64,000 nucleotides of DNA from assembly GCF_016859285.1 (NCBI RefSeq), contig NC_053416.1, positions 9,314,001 through 9,378,000 of the forward strand, written 5' to 3'. Origin of the DNA: Xiphias gladius. Lineage: Eukaryota > Chordata > Actinopteri > Istiophoriformes > Xiphiidae. Position numbers and translations under genes: made by a program. Positions 284 to 58,377 of the stretch are shown one piece after another; positions within the stretch are counted from its first letter, which is position 1; every line of letters starts with the position of its first letter. Below the pieces are notes generated by a model. The model ran no database searches. It was not told the origin of the DNA and saw only the letters and a list, made by a program, of their open reading frames with translations.

Positions 284-1557
284 TCAGCCTAAGAGATAAT
301 CAATCATTGCCGCAGAGATTTCCAAATCCGACAGATTGAAGTCGCTCAGGTCCCGAAAGCACAGATCGGACAGGTCGTCCAAGGACTCGTCCGCGCCGGA
401 GAAGCCCTGGTGGTCCAGCTGACTCTGGACGCTCTCCGCGTATTCAGGATGCCCCACTGCAGCGCAGCGGCTACCCACGGGCTGGGATCCCTGTGCATCT
501 CCGAGGAAAGCCTCAAAGTCCTTTGTCAGATCCCATTCACTTAGCCCGATGTGTGGAAACACACAGTGACCAGTGAAGTCCGGGGTTTGGTAGTAGTGGT
601 CCCGGGGAGCTCCTGGGAGACCCGGTCCATGCGGGGAGCAGGTTGAAGCTTGGTCGGCGGCGACAGGGGATACGGGTCCGGGCGGTGACACGGCCTGACC
701 CCCCGGGACGGTCGAGAGCCTGGTGGACTGAGGTAAACTCGGAGCAGGGTAGCCTGGTGGGGACGGTAGGCCGGGAGCAGGGGAGAAAGCGGGAGGCAGC
801 CGGGGCAGCGGCGGACTGGGAGCAGGAGTGTAGGTGAACTGTGGATGCAGGTATCCCGCGGAGGGTTTGGGGGCCTCCCTGGTTGGTTTCTTGCTCTTGA
901 AATAGCGTGCGCGTCGATTTTGAAACCAGACCTGTTGAAAAGAGGAAACGACGGTTATTTTTATTTATTTTTTTTTTTTTTACGCAACACTGGGGCGTTA
1001 GGCCACCCAAACCGACGCGTCCGGGAAATCTGAGGTGCACATGCCGTACCTGAATTTTAGACTCCGGCAGTCCGGTTACAGAGGCGAGGGACTCCTTCAT
1101 TTTAACGTCCGGGTACTGCGTGACAGAGAAGGCCCTCTCCAGCTCGCTCACTTGCGCCTTGCTGAAAGTCGTGCGCTTCCGGCGGCGCTGGGCGTCCGGG
1201 CGCGTCCTCCGGGGGGCGTCGTGGTGCCCTAAGGGGAGAGGACGGCATCGTTGAATACAGAACGACTGAGCCCACAAGGACGGTGGACCAGACTGAATGC
1301 TTTAAACGTTATAGACTGTAAAGATGGCTATTTGCCTTAAGCAATCCAGGTCAAAGAGAGCACGCGTTCTTATCTCTTGTACTCTAAAACTGCAAACCTG
1401 AACCAGGTTTAAAAATGAGTCGCTCACCTGTGCTGGAGTCCCGTGCGTAATCGTCGTTGCCGTTCCTATCCAGGCCTGTAGCGGGCCAGTAATGTCCCGG
1501 GTAAAACGAGCTCATCTCAGAAACGGGTCCGCCGGTGAAATCCAACCCGAATGCCAT
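284..1557 (-). CDS. sebox: Mix/Sebox-type paired-class homeobox transcription factor (sebox, mezzo-like)
   Basis: Predicted nuclear DNA-binding transcription factor of 318 residues. In zebrafish the sebox/mezzo gene is a Nodal target in mesendoderm. Exons on the minus strand are 1557-1428, 1228-1050 and 931-284; both introns have GT-AG ends and phases agree. The homeodomain is about residues 58-117 ([17 protein letters not shown] onward); helix 3 reads [11 protein letters not shown], giving Gln at position 50 and the invariant Asn51. A Pro/Ser-rich linker follows, then an acidic tail rich in DLSDL repeats ending DYLLG, resembling the acidic activation region of Mix-like proteins. The second intron falls inside the homeodomain just before the WFQN motif, a common site in paired-class genes. 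The first ATG after the TATA box (residues MAFGLDF) was chosen. The exact orthologue name (sebox versus another Mix paralogue) is less certain than the family. Confidence 0.85.
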
Positions 1558-12500: not shown

Positions 12501-15500
12501 TTTAAGTGCGTGTTTAAACCCAAAACAGTAATTAATGCTTACATAAACAATACAACAAGGCAGGAAGCTGAGACTGCCAACAGAGACGAAGCTAAACAGC
12601 TGGAGAACAGCTGCGTGAGTCAGAGGAAATATGCAAACTTACAACAACTTAACAGCTGTCATCAGGGGAGTCAGGTGGACCGTCTGAGCCGATCTAATGT
12701 CGCGGAGAAGCTAGCACCTCATGAACGTCGGTTGGATAATGAGCCAAAAAGGCAGAACAACACACCAACAAGACACTTCTGACAACAGAGGTTCATTCTT
12801 GAGCTTGGGAACTCATACATGCGGTAAAATATTATTACTGTTATTATTCCACTATTCAAAATGTCTTCAAGTTTCACTTACTTGCTTTTGAGAACGTGTC
12901 ATGCCAGAATCATCACAAAAAAAAAAACAGCTGACTCATCGGAAAACAATCTGCAGGAGAGCTGTAACGTCTCACCAAAAGAACAGCTAATGCATGAGGA
13001 ACTAGACTTAAGAAGGAGACTAAAGCAATATATTTAACTGTACCCAGGACCGATTTCAGCCTTTAACTCTACATACGTGATTTCAGACCGTTTTAAAACT
13101 CTACTTCTAATGTTTCACTCCTCCGTCTCTGTCATTAGCAGCACCAGATTATCATGTACAGATCACAAATGGTGAATTAACGGCACGCCCGCTGCTCCCC
13201 TATGTGACCAAACTACTGCCATAGACATTACCACATTTCATATTAAATCTGCGCTGACTCACTTGGTAAAGCAAACTGGACAGACATGGTAAAAGAAAAT
13301 GAAGGCTTTAAGACAAATTTGTTACATAATTGTACCATCTTGCAGGCTGTGTCCTTCTGTCTTGTCTTAACGGTTGCTTTTGTCATTTACCTGTCCAGGC
13401 AATGCAGCGGTGGTGAAGCCCTCTGAGGTCTGTGTTCACACTGCAAAGGTCATGGAAGACCTGCTGCCAGTTTACATCGACAAAGTAAGAACGGATGGCA
13501 TAACATCAGCATAACATGTATCCGAGGATTCATTGAAGTGAAGAGAGACACTTAAAGGGAGACAATACATAACTGATCCTGAACAGGCAGGGTAAAAAGT
13601 TTTAACCCTCCTTCTTCACCAAATGTGGATCATCATGACAGGATTAATTTCAGAAAAAATTAACATAATCGACACGTACACTTTGACAAAGAGAATTATT
13701 TCCTCTCTGAACAAAACACAGATTGTGTTTATAGTCCACATTGCTAGCTTTCCTGCTGGCTCTGTCTGCACTGGTACAGTATATCTGACAAACACTGTTC
13801 ACCTTTACTATAGTATATAAACTTTACATGGGCAGCCATGCATTCAAAGGCTCCTAACAGGAAAAGTTAAAGTGTGTGCTTGGCATATATGATGTGCAAA
13901 CAACCAACAACCAGTTTTATTTTTACATATGTATTTTCTCTGCAGTTTATCTACAAATCCAAAAAAGAAAAGAGCAAAATTATAATAAAATGGATATCAC
14001 AAGACTTTGCAGCTTTGTGATAACTGACTGTGTTTTACTACCCTGTGTGTCAGGAGCTTTACCCTGTAGTAACCGGAGGAGTGTCAGAGACCCAGGAGCT
14101 GCTGCGCCAGCGGTTTGATCACATCTTCTACACCGGCAACAGCGTGGTGGGCAAACTGATTATGGAGGCTGCCGCCAAACACCTGACACCTGTCACCCTG
14201 GAGCTGGGCGGAAAGAGCCCCTGCTACATTGACAAAAACTGTGACATAAGGGTAGCCTGCAGGTCAGAACGATGCTTAGATATGTTTCCTTTTCCGTCTT
14301 AGGACTTTCCTGACAATTAGCAAACTCTCCCATTCACGCACTAGGGAATTTCGGGCCAAAAATCGAATTCCTGCCCACACGGGGGGGGGCATAAAAATCT
14401 GGAACACAAACAATCTGCATCAATATCCAACCAACAGCATCCCAATCCGACTCACGGCCCCCAAATTACGATTTTCCAAAGTTCGGAGTCTGGGTTCCCA
14501 TTTGTCAGAGTACCCCAAAACGGCCACTGGGTGTCATTTTTTTCCTCCCATTTGGGAACATTTTTGGCAACACACCCGGGAGGCTCATCCGAAGCATCCA
14601 AAAAGTTCCCTGTGCGGAACCCTGTGTCAAAAATGGTCCCATTTATCAAACCCCGTTTGTCAGAGTGAAAAAAGTATGCAAAATGTCAGATTTTTTTTAT
14701 CAATCCAGATATTTTTACATTTGGCATGAGAGGGAGGAGGTGGGAATACCAGACATTATAGCACCGCTTGTTTAGAGGCCAGGCAGTCACTGTCGCGCTT
14801 GGAAACAGCTTCTACTCTGGTTCTGAATACATATATACTGTCATGGATAAAGTTCAGCACTTAGGAGCCTGTATTATAAAACATATTTCAATTTCACATT
14901 GGTAAGTGAAAATCAGGTCATTATTTGGTCTTTGACATTTGGGAACCCCGAACACAGGAGGTTTAGGCGGACCTGGCCTTCCTGAAATGCCACCACAGCT
15001 TCTTGGATTGGGGAACATCGAGATTGGGGCATTGAAATGGTCTGCTGTAGCTGTGTTGTGGCACATGAAAGTGGCCTTCTTCTTCCTAACCCCTGATGAG
15101 TAGACATTATTTGCCTGGGGACAGTAGAAGACAGGGACACAAAGATTGGTGCTGTTAGTAAAGCCAGCAGAGTTTTGATTGCGAGACTGCTGCAGGACGA
15201 GTGACTGAAGAGAACTCACTTGTGCGGACACGGCCGTACGAATATCAACAAAGTTGGGCTTTCCTGGTAAGCCCATCTCCTCCCAGGCCCCCTGCATGTA
15301 GCGGACCATGTTTTTTGCTGGCCCTTTGCCTGTTGCGAAGAACACCAGGTTGTTGTGTGGCTGGCACTGCTCCCGCAGCTTCAGCCAAGTTTCCAGCCAC
15401 TGGTATTCTTCAGGCTCAAAAAAAATCTTGGCCACCCCAAAGCCTTTATTGGTTTTGTGTTCGCTCACCTGCAATACACAGAACACAAGAGAGAGGCAAG

Positions 15501-18500
15501 GACCCTGTCAGATCATACATTTCCAATAAAACTGATCAGGATTCCCTAATGTTGTAGTAACAAAGAGCAACATTTTTGACACGGCGGGCTATCAAAATGT
15601 CCAATCCCTACCATCTCCTTCAAAAGTGTGCAAAATGCCAAAATATTAAGGTAAAATCCGACAACCTAACCACACATCAGTCAAAACCCTCATACTTACA
15701 GAGACAACAAAACCCTCAGAGGACTTGCTGCCAGTCTTGGCAGCCTGAACCTCAGCCACATTCATATTTGTCAGCACTCCAGGGTGGTGTCCATACATGC
15801 TGGTGACGGAACGCTGCAAAGTAACCATAAAAATGGTAACGGAGCTGCTGGTTGTTGTCATTCTTCATTTCCTCTGAGTGGAGGACATAGCAAAAGAAAG
15901 AACACAAAAGCCGTTTCAGCATCTTGCAAGACACAGATAAGCCCACACACAAACACAATCAAACGTACACACACACACACACAGGCTCAACCGTCCACTA
16001 TGCACACTTACCCAGCAGCTGTGGGATCTTGGCCTTGGCACCTCTTGAGGGTCTCCCTGGACACCACCGTGGATATTTTGCTTGCCTTAACCTTTAATTG
16101 GTGAACCACAACCTTTTTGGTTATGTGACCCATGGCTGCTCGCACAGCCCTGATCACCAGTGTTAGCTGGATCGGGGAGAGCGACAGAGGCGCGGTGGGG
16201 TCTCCTTCATATATTTGAGGAATTGTTTCACATTCCTCAAATGAAAGTTAGCTGTTGTCATGGTCTTGCCCGTGGATAGCAGGTGGTCTGCCCATCTACA
16301 AAAGCGCAAGGTTGAATTTAGCCACTGTTCATAGGTTTGTGTCATAACTGCTTAAACACAAATGACATGGTTAGGAAAGCCACTTTTACTCTCTGATTTT
16401 TTGCTATGTTGTCAAGAAAGTGCCAAGAGTGCAAATCTTTGCTTCCCATGCTCATGAAGTAAACAAAGGATTTGACTGTGCTCACTTTTGAGATAGTGTT
16501 CTCTAGCTGTTTTTGGGAGTGACAGCTTCCCTCGTGGTACTTCTGGTATTTGCTGAGGTACTTGTCTGTGAATACACATAGAAAAGTATGTGAGAAACAT
16601 TTAACATGAAATTCCAACCTTAAATCACTCACTAACTTATATGCTACTTTTTTTCTTACCAATGGAGGTGGGTAAAATACGATTTCTCACTCCAGGTGTC
16701 CTCCCGCTACACCGGAAGAGTTTACGAATAATGCTCAGACCTGCCTCTTCTTCCTCCTCTTCCTCTCCAGCCCAAGTAGCCTCTTCTCCGTCTTGGTCTC
16801 TGGCGTTGGCTGTCAAAAAACACACAAATATAGAAATAATAATTATTTTGACTCATGCCATCTATATATTTCTCACTAGCTCCATCTCAGATTCATTTTG
16901 ATAAAGCAACCCAGGATTCTCTCTGAGCTCATGTTAAGATAAAACACTCAGGTCTAGGGATAGCCAGCTTCACTCACCAATCCAGCCGCATTGGACAGGC
17001 GGCGGTACTTTTTGTCCAGCTGCTTGTACCGTCTGCGTACAGTGGAGAGCTCCTTCTCCAGCTTCTGGTTTTGTTCTTTTAATTTTTTGCTGGCCTCACA
17101 ATAACTTTGCAGGCGGCTTATACAGTCTTGGGCAGTGCATGTGGCCGCCCCCTCCTCCTGAGGTTTCTCAGGAATGCGCACCTCATCCCCCTCCTCTTCT
17201 CCCTCCAGGTCTAGGGTGGTAGCCATCATTGGTGATGGATTGGTCGCCCTCAGTGCTGCCAGGAGAGCAAGTGTTTTTGCTACCTTCACCGCGTCCATGT
17301 GGTTCTCCACCTCGTTTTTGCTGAGGTCAGGGTGGCTCTCTATCAGGTGCCTGTCCAGTCTTTTACTCTTATATGTACACCCCAAGACTGGACAGGCCGA
17401 ATCCCTGACATAAACCCTCCTGGTGGCTAGGTTGAGGAGGAGCCTCCTCTCCTGCAAATTTGCTACCCTGTGGGCGGTGCGAAGGTGATTGGACATTGCT
17501 GTGTACACTTTGTAGCACACAGGGCAGCAGTTGCTCTTCTTTGGAAGAGTCATTTCTGAAGGAAAAAACAAAAAAAACAGTCAATTCAAAAGTAAGAAGT
17601 AAAATTTTCATCTTTACTACTACATACTACATGTCCTTTAAACTAGCACATCTGTAAACATCATTTAAAGTCTTCCAGAGATTACTGCTTAACTGGACTA
17701 CCTGCAATCACTTCATTCATGCCAAAAATACAATTTTCAGACAAAGAGAGGGAAGAAAAGAGAGGGAAGAAAATAGAAACACTTACTTTCAGGGTGTTCT
17801 GCATCCAAATGAAGCAGAAGGAGAAGATGCAGGGGGCGTTTATGGCTTCTTACTGCTCTCTGATTGGCTCACCCTGTGCTCAACCTGCAGAGAGAAAGAA
17901 TGAGGTCACAAGTTAGCTCTCTGATTGGCTCAGTCTGCAGAGATAAAGCGCATGAGAGTGAGGTCACCAGACTTTACGTCCCAGTACCACGTCCGAGTCC
18001 ATATTTTAACATTTTGCAAACATATGACATGTGGCATGCATTTGAATGGGGTGGTCGGCATTCCCAAATGTCAACCAAATGGCAAAAATGTTCCCAAATA
18101 TCAGAATATAACAGGATCTGACAGATGACAGACTAAATGTCACAGTGGCAACCGGCTCAGCCTCTGCTCAGCCTGCAGCGAGAAAGAGGGTGAGAGAGAG
18201 GACACCAGACATGATGGCACCGCTTTTTGAGAGGCCAGGCAGAGTCTGTCACGCTTGGAAACAGCTCCTACACTGGTCCTGAATACATATATACTGTCAT
18301 GAATAAAGTTCAGGATTCAAGAAGGTGCCTTTAACTGTGGAACATATTCCAGTTTCACATTGATAAGTCAGCAGCAAGTCATTACTTGGTCTTTGACATT
18401 TGGGAAACATTGAGCACCCCATTCAGATGTATTCCAAATGTCAAAATGTAAGGGTCAATTCGTTAAATTTTGACATTTGGCACATTTTTAAATGGGGTGG

Positions 18501-21500
18501 CTGGCATTCCCAGATGTCAACCCAAATGTCAAAAATGTTCCCAAATGGACCCAGACTAAGTAAACTTATAGTTCAACACATCGGCCTCGTAAAGGTCATT
18601 TCACCGGATCTTTCTAAAGCTAGAGGGTTGCAACCTTTCCCAACTGAAAGCTGGTGTTGCAGCGAAGAGCTGACATCAGTGTGGTGGTCCTGGCTGCATG
18701 TTAACCAGCTCCAAAGTTGAAAAGGTTGCCAGGTTCCCTCATGTTTTTTTCATTGTCGTATTGCAACTTTTCAAATGTGCATATTTACTCAGAGAAAGGT
18801 CCCAGAGACTGCAGATTTTGCACCGACGGTGTGGGCGGGGCCTACGACAAGCCCGCGTCACCAAATCCCCTCTGTGGCATCTAGAAATATACGAGGTTCA
18901 TTGGAATGATGAAGTGAATTTCTCACGTGTTCCCAATTGTCAGATTTGTTGCCAATCTTCACCGATCAAAGTGTGCCAAACATTGGGCACACTGACACCG
19001 TTACCCATTTTTGACAGTGAACACGAATCCCCATTCATTTTTCCGTACAAATTTCCTTTATATATTTTTTTCATTTAGCATATTTTTCATCCAGTCTCCC
19101 TCATACTGTAGCTGTTCCTTCCTGACACCCTCCTGTCGACTTTTCCACTCCCGTATAGACGCGTCACCTGGGGAAAGTACACTAACTGTGGTCAGACCTG
19201 CATCGCCCCAGACTACATCCTTTGCGAGCCCAGCATCCAGGACCAGGTCATCGAAGAGGTCAAGAATTCCATTAAGGTACTGAAGACCTGAAAACACAGC
19301 TCTAGCACTAAGGAGAGGTAGTAATCTATTTATTTCATTGTAAACGTCGAAAAACAGCTGATTCCGTATGAAAAGCCCCAGAATGGCTAAATAGTAACCT
19401 GTTATATCAGAAAGTCTACAGATGTCAGATGTGATTGTAGAGGAAAACTAACTATGTTTTAAAACCAGAGTGAACCGAAAAAATCATTGATTTAGGGGGA
19501 ATTTCACAGGAATATTTATGTAATATTACATTGTTCCCACTGGCAGGATTTCTACACAGACAACCCAAAGACCTGCCCTGACTATGGACGCATCATCAAC
19601 CAGCGCCACTTCAAGAGGATAATGGCCATGTTGGACGACAGCACCGTCGCTGTAGGAGGAGACAACGACGAGTCAGACTGCTACATAGGTAATACCTCTG
19701 ACTTCCACCAACCCTTCGCATGAAAATCAATCAGGACTTGTCTGCCTGAGTCATACACTCAGGCGTCAAAAAAAGCATTTGGTGGGAGCTTTTTTTTGGG
19801 TTTCCTTATTTAAACATGTTAAAATAATGAAGACCAGGAATAATAAACAGTGTTTCTGTGTTGCGTTTAGCCCCCACAGTTCTGCGTGACACGAAGCCAG
19901 AGGCGAAGGTGATGCAGGAGGAGATATTTGGACCTCTGCTTCCCATCTTGCCGGTCAGCGGTCTGGATGAAGCGATCAAGTTTATCAATAAGGGAGAGAA
20001 ACCTCTGGCCCTCTACGTCTTCACACCGGATGACAAGGTCTCCATAACAGCAGTTAACAGATGCAGACCTCTACATGCACGGGGTGTAGATTCAGACTCG
20101 TGGGTATAACATGATTATTTCTTCCTCCTCTCTCCAAAGGTGATAAAAAGAATGGTAGATGAGACCTCCAGCGGAGGACTGCTGGCCAACGACTGCCTTG
20201 TACACTATTCTGTCAGCTCTCTGCCCTTCGGAGGAGTGGGTGAGTTCACATAGCGCTGACTCTTCTCAGAAATGCTACTGCAAAGACAAGTTCCCCCATT
20301 CCCTCACTTGCGTTAGTGGAGTCACCAGTGAGTGAGCAGTGAGCATTTTATTGCGTGAATTTAAATAAATTAATTGAACTCAATTGAATTTAGTTGGATA
20401 GATTTAGTCTAATTCAATTAAGTAAATTTCATTTCATTTAATTAATTGAACTTTAATAAATTAATTTAATTAACTCATTTTCATTGACTGAATTTTATTA
20501 AATTTAATTGAGCAGATTTATATCGAGTAAATTTAATTATTTTAATTAATTAAACCTAATTTTATTTAATGAATTTAACTCAATTTAATTTAATTTAGTA
20601 AACTTAATTAAATTAATCCATTGAATTCAATTTCCTTCAGTAAATTTTGAAACACAACTCCTCCAGAGACTTTAATTGAGCAAATGTAATTTACTTTGGA
20701 TTTAATTGAATTATTTAAGTCAATTTTGTTAGTTACATTCGATTCAATACAGTCAATTGATTGATTTAGCATAATTTGATTAATTTAATTCAATTTCATT
20801 TATGTGAGTAAATGTAACATGAGTAACATGAGATATTTGTGTATATGGTACACAGTATGCACAACATGCAATATATGATGTATTTTTTTGGTATGCCATG
20901 TATGTTTTGTATCATATTTGAAATGAATGAATATAAACTGAATGTATACATAGCACAAGACATGTTTTTGACCACAACTCAAGAGTTCATACGCTAATTA
21001 CGATTAAATACACTTAATCATTTTTTAAAATTCCTTCTTCACTACAGTCTTCACTACATACATTGTATAAATCTAGACAGACATGTATGTAAAGTGCAAC
21101 TTGACTGTCTTCCGGGAGAGACGGTCTGAAAATCAGTGCTGTTATCACCGTTTTTAGACAATATCACGCCCCCCCCTCTCTCCGCGACGGTCGGTTTTTC
21201 ACTCCGCCGTCCGGTGTGGCCGTTCGGATAAGGGATAAACCCTTTGATGTCTGACATGGTCGGGCAGCACGACTTATGAACTAGTTCTGACAAAGCATAA
21301 AGTGGCCCTCAAAGTCCCCTGTAGTGTGACATTATAAAAATGAAACCGCATTTAAGCATTTAAGTTAAGGCAGGAACGTACCTGGTTAAATAACGGTTTG
21401 ATAAACCATTTTCCAAAGAATACCTACCATTTCAACCGGACTTCATACGTTTCAAGACATCCACTGGTTTACTTCAGCATGTAACGTCTGTGATCTTGCC

Positions 21501-48837: not shown

Positions 48838-51384
48838 ATGGATCTTAAGTTGAAGACCGAAAATGATGGACCAATGGACAAAGCTGTCGAGGTACTGACT
48901 CTCACCTGTGTAATGAAAGGAAAGCCCCAAAATGAAAGTCTTTTCAGCTTAATTCAAGTTGTTTCAAATCAATTCATATCACCTTTACCACAACATTTTG
49001 ATTACTGATTTACATGGGTTTTGTAATTTTATCTTGTTCTGTAACTCTTATCAAGGACATAAATGACATGTCAAAAGTCCTAAGCATGCATTTTAAAATA
49101 CATTACTATTAATAACATTTCTGTCTCTTTTCTCAAGAATGGGGAGAGCTGTCAACATCGTGAATCGCAACTTGTTGCAAAGGTTTGTCATGATTTAATT
49201 TATAATCTGTTTACAAATAAAAACTATAGTTGAAATACACACTTATTTTTCTTTTGTAACATTTCGATTTAGCATTTGTGTCACAATTTCTTGTTTTTTT
49301 GTGAGATATTTTTCTTCAATTTTAGGAAAACATGATAAAAATTGATTTAGTATGTGTTAGTATGTATTTTCATTTTTTTTTCTTCAGCCATGTTTCTGAG
49401 ATGATGTGAAAAGTGTGATGTTGCTTAAATGGCATAAAAATTGTTTTACTATAAGTAAATTAAATGGGACTTAAATGTCTTTCATTCCTAGGAAGCGGCG
49501 CCACATCCAACCCATTCTTTCAAGTGGTGCTTAAATCGCAAGTTACCCTCATTTGTTACCTGCAACCAAGCGGGAACTGTTGAGGACTCGCTGAACAGAA
49601 GTGCACTGTTTAGAACAACTGCAGGAAAGAACAGACGTAGAGAGCTTGTCATCCTAAGAGATGGGAAAGCTATCAGTTCACACTTTCCATGCCACTTGAT
49701 TAAAACTGAGCTTTTAACTGTCCAGTATATTAAAACTGTAGACAAGCAAAGGCAACCGGGAAGTGGCTCTTTTCGTCCCTGCAGAAAGGGGTCATCCGGT
49801 GAGCTTGTGATTTTTGATGTATTGGCAAAAGGAGGTAAAAATGTAGTGAAAATCATGAAAAACCCAGCACTAAAAGCAATCGCTCAGGATATTACTGTTT
49901 ATGCATACAAAGGGGAGACAGTGAAGCAAGCTCTAAAAAGAGATGGTCGTTTTCTGAACACTGTATTCAAAAAGAACTGTGTGCTCTCCCACAAAATCAC
50001 TCAAGTAAACACGGAAATGTCGAATCTCGTAGATGATCTTGATGGTAAAACTTACAAGATCATACTGCTGAATAAGTTTAGTCCACCAGAAAGCCAGCCT
50101 GGCAGTCTTGATGATGCTTACATGATGCCAGATAAGTCTCAGAGATCTGATTCTGATGGAAACCAAGGTCCTTCAGAGCAGTCTACCACAACTGAGTCAG
50201 TGAATGACAACATGATGGAAAATAAACCACAGACAAATGGCAATACGGCAGCACAAACAACATTTCATGAAATACCTGACTCAGGAAATATGCAGAATCA
50301 CTTATCTTCAGTGTTTAAACATTTGGTAGATGGGATGAAAACTCTTCCCAAGCTTTCTCGTATCCAGAATCTCTTGCGTGTCGAGTATGGAAAGAATGCT
50401 GAGACATGCACGGAAGTGAAAACAATGAAGAAACTGATGGTTCGTAGCACTTCTGTTTGTCAAGTGAGAATAAATGGGAGCCCAGAAGGAAGTGGCTTTC
50501 TCCTATTTGACAAGTTTGTCCTCACAAATTGTCATGTACTTCAAGAAATTTACAATGAGAATCGGAGGCAGCATTATGAGCGCGTCACCGTCCATTTCTC
50601 TTATGAAAGTCTAGACCAGAAGGAGAGCGGAAAAGAGCATGGAGCGGAAGTGGAAGTGGAAGAGATGGTGGTCTCTGAATTAGGTCCCGATGTGTCAGGG
50701 CACGTGTATGACTGGGCTTTGTTAAGGCTCAGGGCTAATCAGACATTGCCTGAGGGTCTGTTAAAACACTTTGGATTCCTTCCCCAAAGTGGTGGAATTT
50801 GCATTATTGGGCATCCTGATGGTGGTGTGAAAAAAATAGATGCAGGCTTGATCATTCCATCTGATAGCCGTGACCAGGTTGTGGAGAAGCATTACCATAA
50901 AAATCTAAGGAACTTTCAGTTGATTACCCAGCGTTTCTTTGAGGGTGTGGCGAAATCTATTCAACCTGAAAGACATTTACTAACTTACAAATCTTGTTTT
51001 TATTTCGGGTCATCTGGCTCTCCTGTCTTTAACAAGTACTGCAAAGTTGTTGCAATGCATTCAGGGGGCTACCACTACCCCGATACAGGGAATAAACATC
51101 ACCATTTCGTAGAGTTTGGCTATTGTTTGTCCAACATTATTGAACACATCATTGTCCAGCTGGTGAACAGAGAAAAGTTTGATGTGTTGAAGGCATACCT
51201 CGCTTGCAGTTATGCACACCACCAAGACATGATGAGCAATTTGAAGCAACTGGTTGAGAGCAGAAACTTCATTAAATTTAAAAATGCACTCAGCAGTTCA
51301 GTGGTAGCAAATGACGCGAGTTTGAAGATGTTCTTTGAATTCTTCTGTCAGAAAGAGGAAAACATCCCAATGGACATTGTTTAA
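48838..51384 (+). CDS. fam111a: FAM111-type nuclear trypsin-like serine protease
   Basis: Chymotrypsin-fold serine protease. Human FAM111A/B act in the nucleus at replication forks on protein-DNA adducts and in antiviral restriction. Coding exons: 48838-48891, 49138-49182 and 49492-51384, all phase 0, giving 663 residues (human FAM111A has 611, FAM111B 734). The N-terminal half (about 45-230) resembles the FAM111 ubiquitin-like region (GKAISSHFPCHLI). The protease half shows the full triad: His381 in LTNCHVL, Asp440 in VYDWALLRL and Ser543 in GSSGSPVFNK, close to human His385, Asp439 and Ser541. A polar, Ser/Gln/Asn-rich linker (about 240-300) joins the halves. The start is the first ATG after an acceptor. 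AATAAA at 51970-51975 fits the 3' end. Fish carry several FAM111-like paralogues, so one-to-one orthology with FAM111A is not shown. Confidence 0.88.
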
Positions 51385-57130: not shown

Positions 57131-58377
57131 CAGTGGCTTCAGAAAGTATTCAGACCCCTTCATGTTTTGCACATTATGTTATGTTGTAGATTTAATTTTA
57201 AATGGATAAAATTACCATTTTTGTCCATCAGTTTACACCCAATAAGGCATAATGACAAAGTGAAAACGTTTTTTTTTTTAGAAATTTTTACAAATTTGTG
57301 AAAATCAAAAACCGAAATCTCTCCCTTACAAAAGTGTTCAGATCCTTTGCTGTGGCACTCCACATTGTGGTCAGGTGCATCCTGTTTGCTTTCATTTTCC
57401 TTGAGATGTGTCTACAACTTGACTGGAGTCACACTATTGCAAATTGAATTGATTGGACATAGTTTAGAAAGGCCCACACCTGTGTATATAAGGGCCCACA
57501 ATTCATACTGCATGTCCGGACAACAACCAAGCTATGCTGTCCGAGGAAAACTCTGTAAACCTAGTCGATAAAATTGTGTCGAGGCATAGATCAGGGCAAG
57601 GGGTATAAAACCATTTCTAAAGCTTTGAGTGTTACCAGGAGCACAGCGGCCTCAATAACTGAGAAATGGAAGAGGTGTGGAAGGAGGGAGGGAGGTGACC
57701 CAACGATCTCTCTCACAGAGCTTCAGAGTTCCTCTGCAGAGATGGGAGAACCTGCTTGAAGCCCGACCATCCCAGCAGCACTCCATCAATCAGGCCTTCC
57801 GAACTGAGGGTAAGATGATTGCAGCCAGATCCACAGACTTCTTCGGAGAAAAAATCTGCTCCAGAGCGCATGCGACCTGAGACTGGATCGACTGGTCGCC
57901 TTTCAGCAAGACGACAACACTGGAGTGGTTCCAGGATGAGTCTCTGCCTGTCCTTGAGCCAAAGCCCAGACCTAAACCCCATAGACTATCCGTGGAGAGA
58001 CCTGGAGATGGCAGTTCACAGACGCTTCCCATCCAATCTGACGGAGTTTGAGAGGATCTGCCAGGAAGAATTGGATAAACTGCCCAAATCCAGGTGTGCA
58101 AAGCTTGTAGAGACTTACCCAAGAAGACTCGGAGCTGTAATTGCTGGCAAAAGGGCTTCTACAAAGTAGTGAATTAAAGGTTCTGAATAGTTGTGTAAAT
58201 TAGAGATTTTAGTTCTAGATTTTTATTAAATTTGCAAAAATGTCTAAAAACATGTTTTCACTTTGTCATTATGGCTTACTGAGCATAGACTGATGGGTAA
58301 AAATGGGAATTTTATTCAATTAAAATAAAATATAAAAATAAAGTGTGCAAAAGTTTTGAATACTTTTTGAAAGGGCC
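57131..58377 (+). mobile_element. Tc1-like DNA transposon, decayed and internally shortened
   Basis: Flanked by TA at both sides (57129-57130 and 58378-58379). The left end reads CAGTGGCTTCAGAAAGTATTC; the right end is its rough inverse (GAATACTTTTTGAAAGGGCC), with long subterminal inverted segments containing ATGACAAAGTGAAAACG / CGTTTTCACTTTGTCAT-like words. Inside, KTISKALSVTRSTAASITEKWKR is the transposase DNA-binding region, and downstream frames include SPDLNPIDYPWRDLE and RCAKLVETYPRRLGAVIAGKRASTK, the DDE catalytic end. Frame is lost between the parts and the middle looks shortened. Length about 1.25 kb. Confidence 0.9.

Follow-up and report, generated by a model that had tools for sequence, protein, structure and literature searches.

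A probable tyrosine-recombinase DNA transposon with inverted ends and a split zinc-finger gene, decayed within an aldh3-type intron of Xiphias gladius

Introduction

Among DNA transposons that depend on a tyrosine recombinase (YR), the animal Cryptons (CryptonA and CryptonI) carry no reverse transcriptase and are known in medaka, and terminal repeats were not found in them, at least in those portions of Kojima and Jurka (2011, PMC3212892) on which we draw. CryptonV, another group of YR DNA transposons present in Repbase (Kapitonov and Jurka 2012, via PMC8869645), comes from cnidarians according to the excerpt of the latter source used here, and some of its families lie in microsatellites. One annotation of the zebrafish genome assigns 0.9% of it to Cryptons (PMC9341512, relevant excerpt), so YR DNA transposons of fish are not new as such. 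Here we describe a discrete insert of 4071 base pairs (bp) in a stretch of 64,000 nucleotides of Xiphias gladius (NCBI RefSeq assembly GCF_016859285.1, contig NC_053416.1, positions 9,314,001 to 9,378,000; hereafter the window, with coordinates counted from its first base), which lies at 14487-18557 within an intron of an apparent aldh3-type gene and is probably the decayed remains of a DNA transposon that was autonomous and mobilised by its own tyrosine recombinase.

Like Cryptons, this element combines likeness to YRs with the lack of a convincing reverse transcriptase. It differs from the animal Cryptons as presented in the same portions of PMC3212892, where neither inverted nor long direct terminal repeats are ascribed to Cryptons, in having inverted ends and direct repeats of ~220 bp; zinc fingers, which those portions do not mention for Crypton elements, precede the YR-like part here, and its gene contains introns, which for Crypton elements are not discussed there. 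The terminal direct repeats of 4-6 bp that characterise fungal and stramenopile Cryptons were not found at the termini, where the only candidate was AAGT, at chance level and on one side 4 bases off. DUF3504, present in CryptonA and Crypton-derived genes, had no Pfam match at E-values (E) up to 10 in constructs of the element, within the limits of HMMER's filters. Compared by description with CryptonV (PMC8869645, same excerpt), the 20 bases flanking the element on either side are not microsatellite. The DIRS/Ngaro elements share a YR, repeats near the ends and occurrence in fish with the present element and differ from it by carrying a reverse transcriptase, of which Pfam revealed no convincing trace here, and the two hallmarks of DDE-type transposons with terminal inverted repeats (TIRs), a DDE transposase and a target-site duplication, were likewise not found.

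Results

The limits of the insert were fixed by matching inverted sequences at either end, and these limits agree with the original prediction of a split minus-strand unit at 14480-18560. The TIR on the 5' side of the gene, AGTCTGGGTCCATTTGGGAACATTTTTGACA (18527-18557, minus strand), is matched on the 3' side (14487-14569, plus strand) by AGTCTGGGT (14487-14495) and CCATTTGGGAACATTTTTGGCA (14548-14569), which are split by 52 bases (14496-14547); with this gap set aside, 30 of 31 columns are identical. On their own, the 18 outermost bases at the low end (AGTCTGGGTTCCCATTTG) also match the high end with a 2-base gap, and none of 2000 shuffles equalled the score of the outermost end match. The termini of the element read AGTCTGGG and CCCAGACT. 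The motif CCCATTTG occurs both inside and after the 52 interrupting bases, which we read as a later insertion or duplication within the element end.

Two kinds of repeat lie inside these ends. A subterminal direct repeat of ~220 bp (R) is present at 18185-18406 and, directly 3' of the last coding exon, at 14729-14945 (both minus strand), the two copies being 81-83% identical. A unit of ~91 bp (U; TTTGGGAACATTTTTGACATTTGGG...) is duplicated at the high end (18456-18546 and 18010-18099, minus strand; 80% identity over 91 columns), and the order across the element is TIR-U-R-U...R-TIR. No target-site duplication beyond chance was detected with slack of up to 4 bases, the best perfect flank match being 4 bases long, a length that 510 of 2000 randomly chosen pairs of positions equalled or exceeded. 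No further copy was found in the window by blastn, in which matches were confined to the element itself and to repetitive matches to its intron 4.

The host exons on the two sides of the insert (plus strand), when joined, read as one continuous aldehyde dehydrogenase (ALDH) stretch, of which the best match in PDB was fatty aldehyde dehydrogenase (4qgk, E 1.4e-57) and the next best a dimeric NADP-preferring ALDH (E 5.5e-56). Judged from these matches, the host gene is aldh3-type and likely aldh3a2 specifically. The intron had been assigned to aldh3a2 beforehand; its aldh3-type nature is borne out by the match to 4qgk, and the exact gene name is likely but unproved given the score of the dimeric enzyme.

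The minus strand of the element, antisense to the host gene, contains one split gene with an untranslated first exon, six coding exons and six GT-AG introns, so that the splice signals are indeed readable, as had been claimed. The longest minus-strand stop-free stretches in the element comprise 217 and 208 codons. Only 2 of 1000 dinucleotide shuffles of this strand had a longest stretch of at least 208 codons, and none had a second-longest stretch of that length; both readings are therefore unlikely to have arisen by chance. A promoter-like stretch at 17861-17928 (minus strand), which may drive the gene, contains two CCAATCA boxes (17928-17922 and 17867-17861), and the untranslated exon 1 ends downstream of them at 17787; a third CCAATCA (17492-17486) lies inside exon 2. 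A short sequence is repeated upstream of the first exon (18210-18154, 17972-17928 and 17899-17866), two of the copies adjoining CCAATCA boxes, and these are perhaps promoter repeats.

Intron 1 (17556-17786) has a GTAAGTG donor and a TTCAG acceptor and is followed by exon 2 (16978-17555; ATG at 17553, 192 codons), the first coding exon, all exons and introns being on the minus strand. Both of the Cys/His zinc-finger motifs that had been noticed earlier are located in exon 2 (17526-17470 and 17394-17332) and are of C2H2 type, with the patterns C-x2-C-x9-H-x4-H and C-x4-C-x9-H-x4-H; the best Pfam zinc-finger match of this exon, zf-Di19 (E 7e-4), is weak and below the cut-off. A coiled coil, judged by eye, is also probable in exon 2. 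Exon 3 (16660-16809) encodes an acidic linker and contains one frame change, and exon 4 (16012-16565), with three frame changes, corresponds to the core-binding (SAM-like) half of a recombinase. The catalytic domain would start in exon 5 (15700-15873; one frame change), in which the position of the first catalytic Arg is occupied by His (15786-15784), and continue through exon 6 (15220-15468), with the Lys hairpin (Lys at 15456-15454) and the VDIR helix (Arg at 15240-15238), to exon 7 (14946-15114), with His at 15060-15058 and Asn at the Tyr position (15033-15031). For introns 3, 5 and 6 the phases of the flanking exons are consistent. The same holds for intron 4 if the AKIPQLL frame is taken for the final few codons of exon 4, a frame picked partly for that, and at intron 2 exon 3 is off by one base.

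Similarity to tyrosine recombinases was assessed with a profile hidden Markov model (HMM) based on 78 YRs (XerD, lambda Int and 76 viral-contig relatives of XerD) and with the 352 stop-free open reading frames (ORFs) of at least 60 codons in the whole window. Comparison of joined exons 4-7 with the 78 YRs by hhalign gave Prob 81 and P 1.2e-5, which no residue-shuffle control equalled (0/60 and 0/400); the alignment covers the core-binding half together with the region of the Lys hairpin. With the YR HMM, the joined exons reached P 7.7e-5, and scores as good were obtained in 2 of 5000 whole shuffles and in 0 of 5000 half-by-half shuffles (catalytic part alone, 6/5000; exon 4 part alone, 9/5000). 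Among the 352 window ORFs, an exon 4 ORF ranked first at 6.9 bits and the ORF of exons 6-7 took second place at 3.1 bits. In Pfam searches of seven single minus-strand ORFs, Phage_int_SAM_4 was matched by part of exon 4 (E 0.0082), and Phage_integrase was the sole match (E 0.23) of a longer, 180-residue catalytic construct, with no integrase-family matches in 10 reversed or shuffled controls. These Pfam matches may be regarded as weak alone, though the family had been named beforehand. Similarity to the YR superfamily is thus evident with hhalign and the YR HMM and weak in Pfam, and the profile search proposed along with the original prediction came out in its favour. Only chance-level matches were obtained with phmmer against PDB sequences (2l6o, E 0.026; 4oao, E 1.7), and the one PHROGs match, of unknown function (E 0.039), was taken as noise, judged on its low bits.

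The motifs HPGVLTN, HKT, VDIR and MCH, followed by Asn at His+9, were read by eye in the expected YR order, with spacings of 33/69/3/25/9 as compared with 24/72/3/23/9 in XerD (XerD residues checked). The catalytic set reads H-K-V-R-H-N instead of R-K-H-R-H-Y, spaced nearly as expected in what is a decayed single copy, the substitutions being first Arg to His, first His to Val and nucleophilic Tyr to Asn. The recombinase motif order announced earlier is accordingly present by reading, with these three substitutions and with a C-terminal box recognised by eye. No reverse transcriptase was matched in Pfam by seven ORFs of the minus strand (E up to 10) or nine of the plus strand (E up to 0.1), nor any DDE domain by the same ORFs and the joined-exon constructs.

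Several other features were observed in the window. A 630-codon open frame at 49492-51384 (plus strand) contains a Trypsin_2 domain (E 5.5e-12) and is probably a protease gene, which may be FAM111-like. A homeodomain (E 1.1e-11) lies in a 254-codon frame close to the window edge (537-1301, minus strand). An inverted repeat of ~210 bp with 75% identity (57138-57348 and 58176-58371, ~830 bp between) is perhaps formed by the ends of another transposon.

Discussion

Our best reading is that the element is Crypton-like in mode yet bears inverted ends, a feature reported to be absent from animal Cryptons. The original prediction of a Crypton-like or related family agrees with a YR-type gene, several introns and no convincing reverse transcriptase, whereas assignment to plain Cryptons is opposed by the inverted ends, the ~220-bp direct repeats and the lack of a DUF3504 match. 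The copy itself is dead and no longer functional because of five frame changes, assigned by reading (exon 4 has three, exons 3 and 5 one each), and these, together with Asn at the Tyr position and His at the first Arg, agree with the decay suspected earlier. No published account of such an element was recognised among the matches listed, and Repbase or Dfam may already include the family.

A number of results weigh against an autonomous YR transposon. All integrase-family matches of the element in Pfam are below the curated cut-offs, and unrelated families sometimes scored higher: NFACT_N came first in both long constructs (E 0.0049, ahead of SAM_4 at 0.085 and SAM_5 at 0.24, in the first; E 0.0032, with SAM_4 at 0.11, in the second), and DUF7343 (E 0.0089) was above SAM_4 (0.03) in the exon 4-5 construct. 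The first two catalytic constructs matched no Pfam family, and among the 10 Pfam controls 4 had matches to unrelated families (E 0.012-0.11). We took NFACT_N in the joined YR-like exons (E 0.003-0.005) as noise, judged on its low bits. In the ranking by the YR HMM, the second place of the exon 6-7 ORF is shared with an unrelated ORF elsewhere in the window, and in that by hhalign the exon 4 ORF is followed by a host protease ORF, with exons 6-7 third. The C-terminal Arg-His-Tyr box falls outside the hhalign alignment and depends on motif reading by eye, and a single-sequence AlphaFold model of the 149-residue exon 6-7 reading, including the in-frame intron 6, was unusable (mean predicted local distance difference test score 47). 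In NCBIfam the joined exons matched a single model, that of a group II intron reverse transcriptase/maturase (E 0.0024, with 17.1 bits where the cut-off is 300), and this match is also the only result that points toward a reverse transcriptase; it too was judged to be noise on account of its low bits, and with this match discounted, the earlier statement that the unit has no reverse transcriptase holds for the Pfam ORF searches. The evidence consists of a single copy, and neither another copy nor an empty site nor a relative was seen; relatives were absent from viral-contig, prokaryote and plasmid collections, where fish DNA is not expected.

Other explanations of the same locus were weighed. 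That the later exons merely resemble a recombinase, and that the element is a fragment of a zinc-finger/coiled-coil gene, would accord with the unmet Pfam cut-offs and the higher scores of unrelated families, but the profile tests against shuffles and against the window ORFs make this scarcely credible. It is improbable that the element is a TIR transposon of the DDE type, whether autonomous or not, with a recombinase-like passenger gene: inverted ends with subterminal repeats are typical of such elements, but a single gene occupies this one, the Pfam DDE domain is absent from the ORFs and constructs searched, and no target-site duplication stands out from chance.

Elements of the DIRS/Ngaro type, of which this copy could be a remnant that has lost its reverse transcriptase, are commoner than Cryptons in zebrafish (2.1% versus 0.9% of the genome, in the excerpt of PMC9341512) and carry either inverted repeats or split direct repeats (PMC4157794, in the part relevant here), and the sub-threshold NCBIfam match is to a reverse transcriptase/maturase. 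However, no reverse transcriptase appears in the ORFs searched with Pfam, introns have been kept, and they link the zinc-finger exon to the recombinase exons and leave no space for one; the repeat order TIR-U-R-U...R-TIR also differs from A1-B1-A2-B2, and a DIRS-like split-repeat arrangement was sought in the element and not found, all of which makes such an origin quite improbable. Vertebrates also possess Crypton-derived host genes with introns, as stated in the portions of PMC3212892 used here, and the element could be a degenerate duplicate of such a domesticated gene, flanked by repeats through chance. This origin is very improbable in view of the inverted ends, which sit at both limits, and of DUF3504, which remained unmatched even at E up to 10.

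If the element is instead a YR transposon in its own right, its movement may be envisaged as follows. A spliced messenger RNA would be produced from its own promoter, the zinc fingers would probably bind repeats near the ends, and a recombinase tetramer would cut and rejoin both ends to form a circle, which would then enter a new site by strand exchange. Tn916-type conjugative transposons of bacteria are moved by a YR, have inverted ends and make no target-site duplication. Because the ends here are inverted and not direct, chemistry of the Tn916 kind would be likeliest, in which the joined ends consist of inverted binding arms around a few bases from the old flank; with flank bases carried over in such a joint, a target-site duplication would not be expected, and none was seen. 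The two systems would have a YR, inverted ends, absence of a target-site duplication and the proposed coupling bases in common; Tn916-type elements are bacterial and carry other cargo, and the likeness is one of mechanism only. The circle and the Tn916-like steps are what we infer, and this too counts against the overall scenario. It is conceivable, though on the whole unlikely, that the element represents a lineage of vertebrate YR DNA transposons apart from the described Cryptons, in which a zinc-finger recombinase gene rich in introns lies between inverted ends and integration proceeds by Tn916-like coupling-sequence exchange without target-site duplication.

The ways in which YR transposons of animals cut, circularise and select their targets are poorly understood, and a family whose inverted ends are clear would provide defined sites at which to test the recombination in cells. 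Since the introns are retained, this copy would have been made through DNA and not RNA; an intron-bearing transposase gene thus suggests copying as DNA, and splicing could control it.

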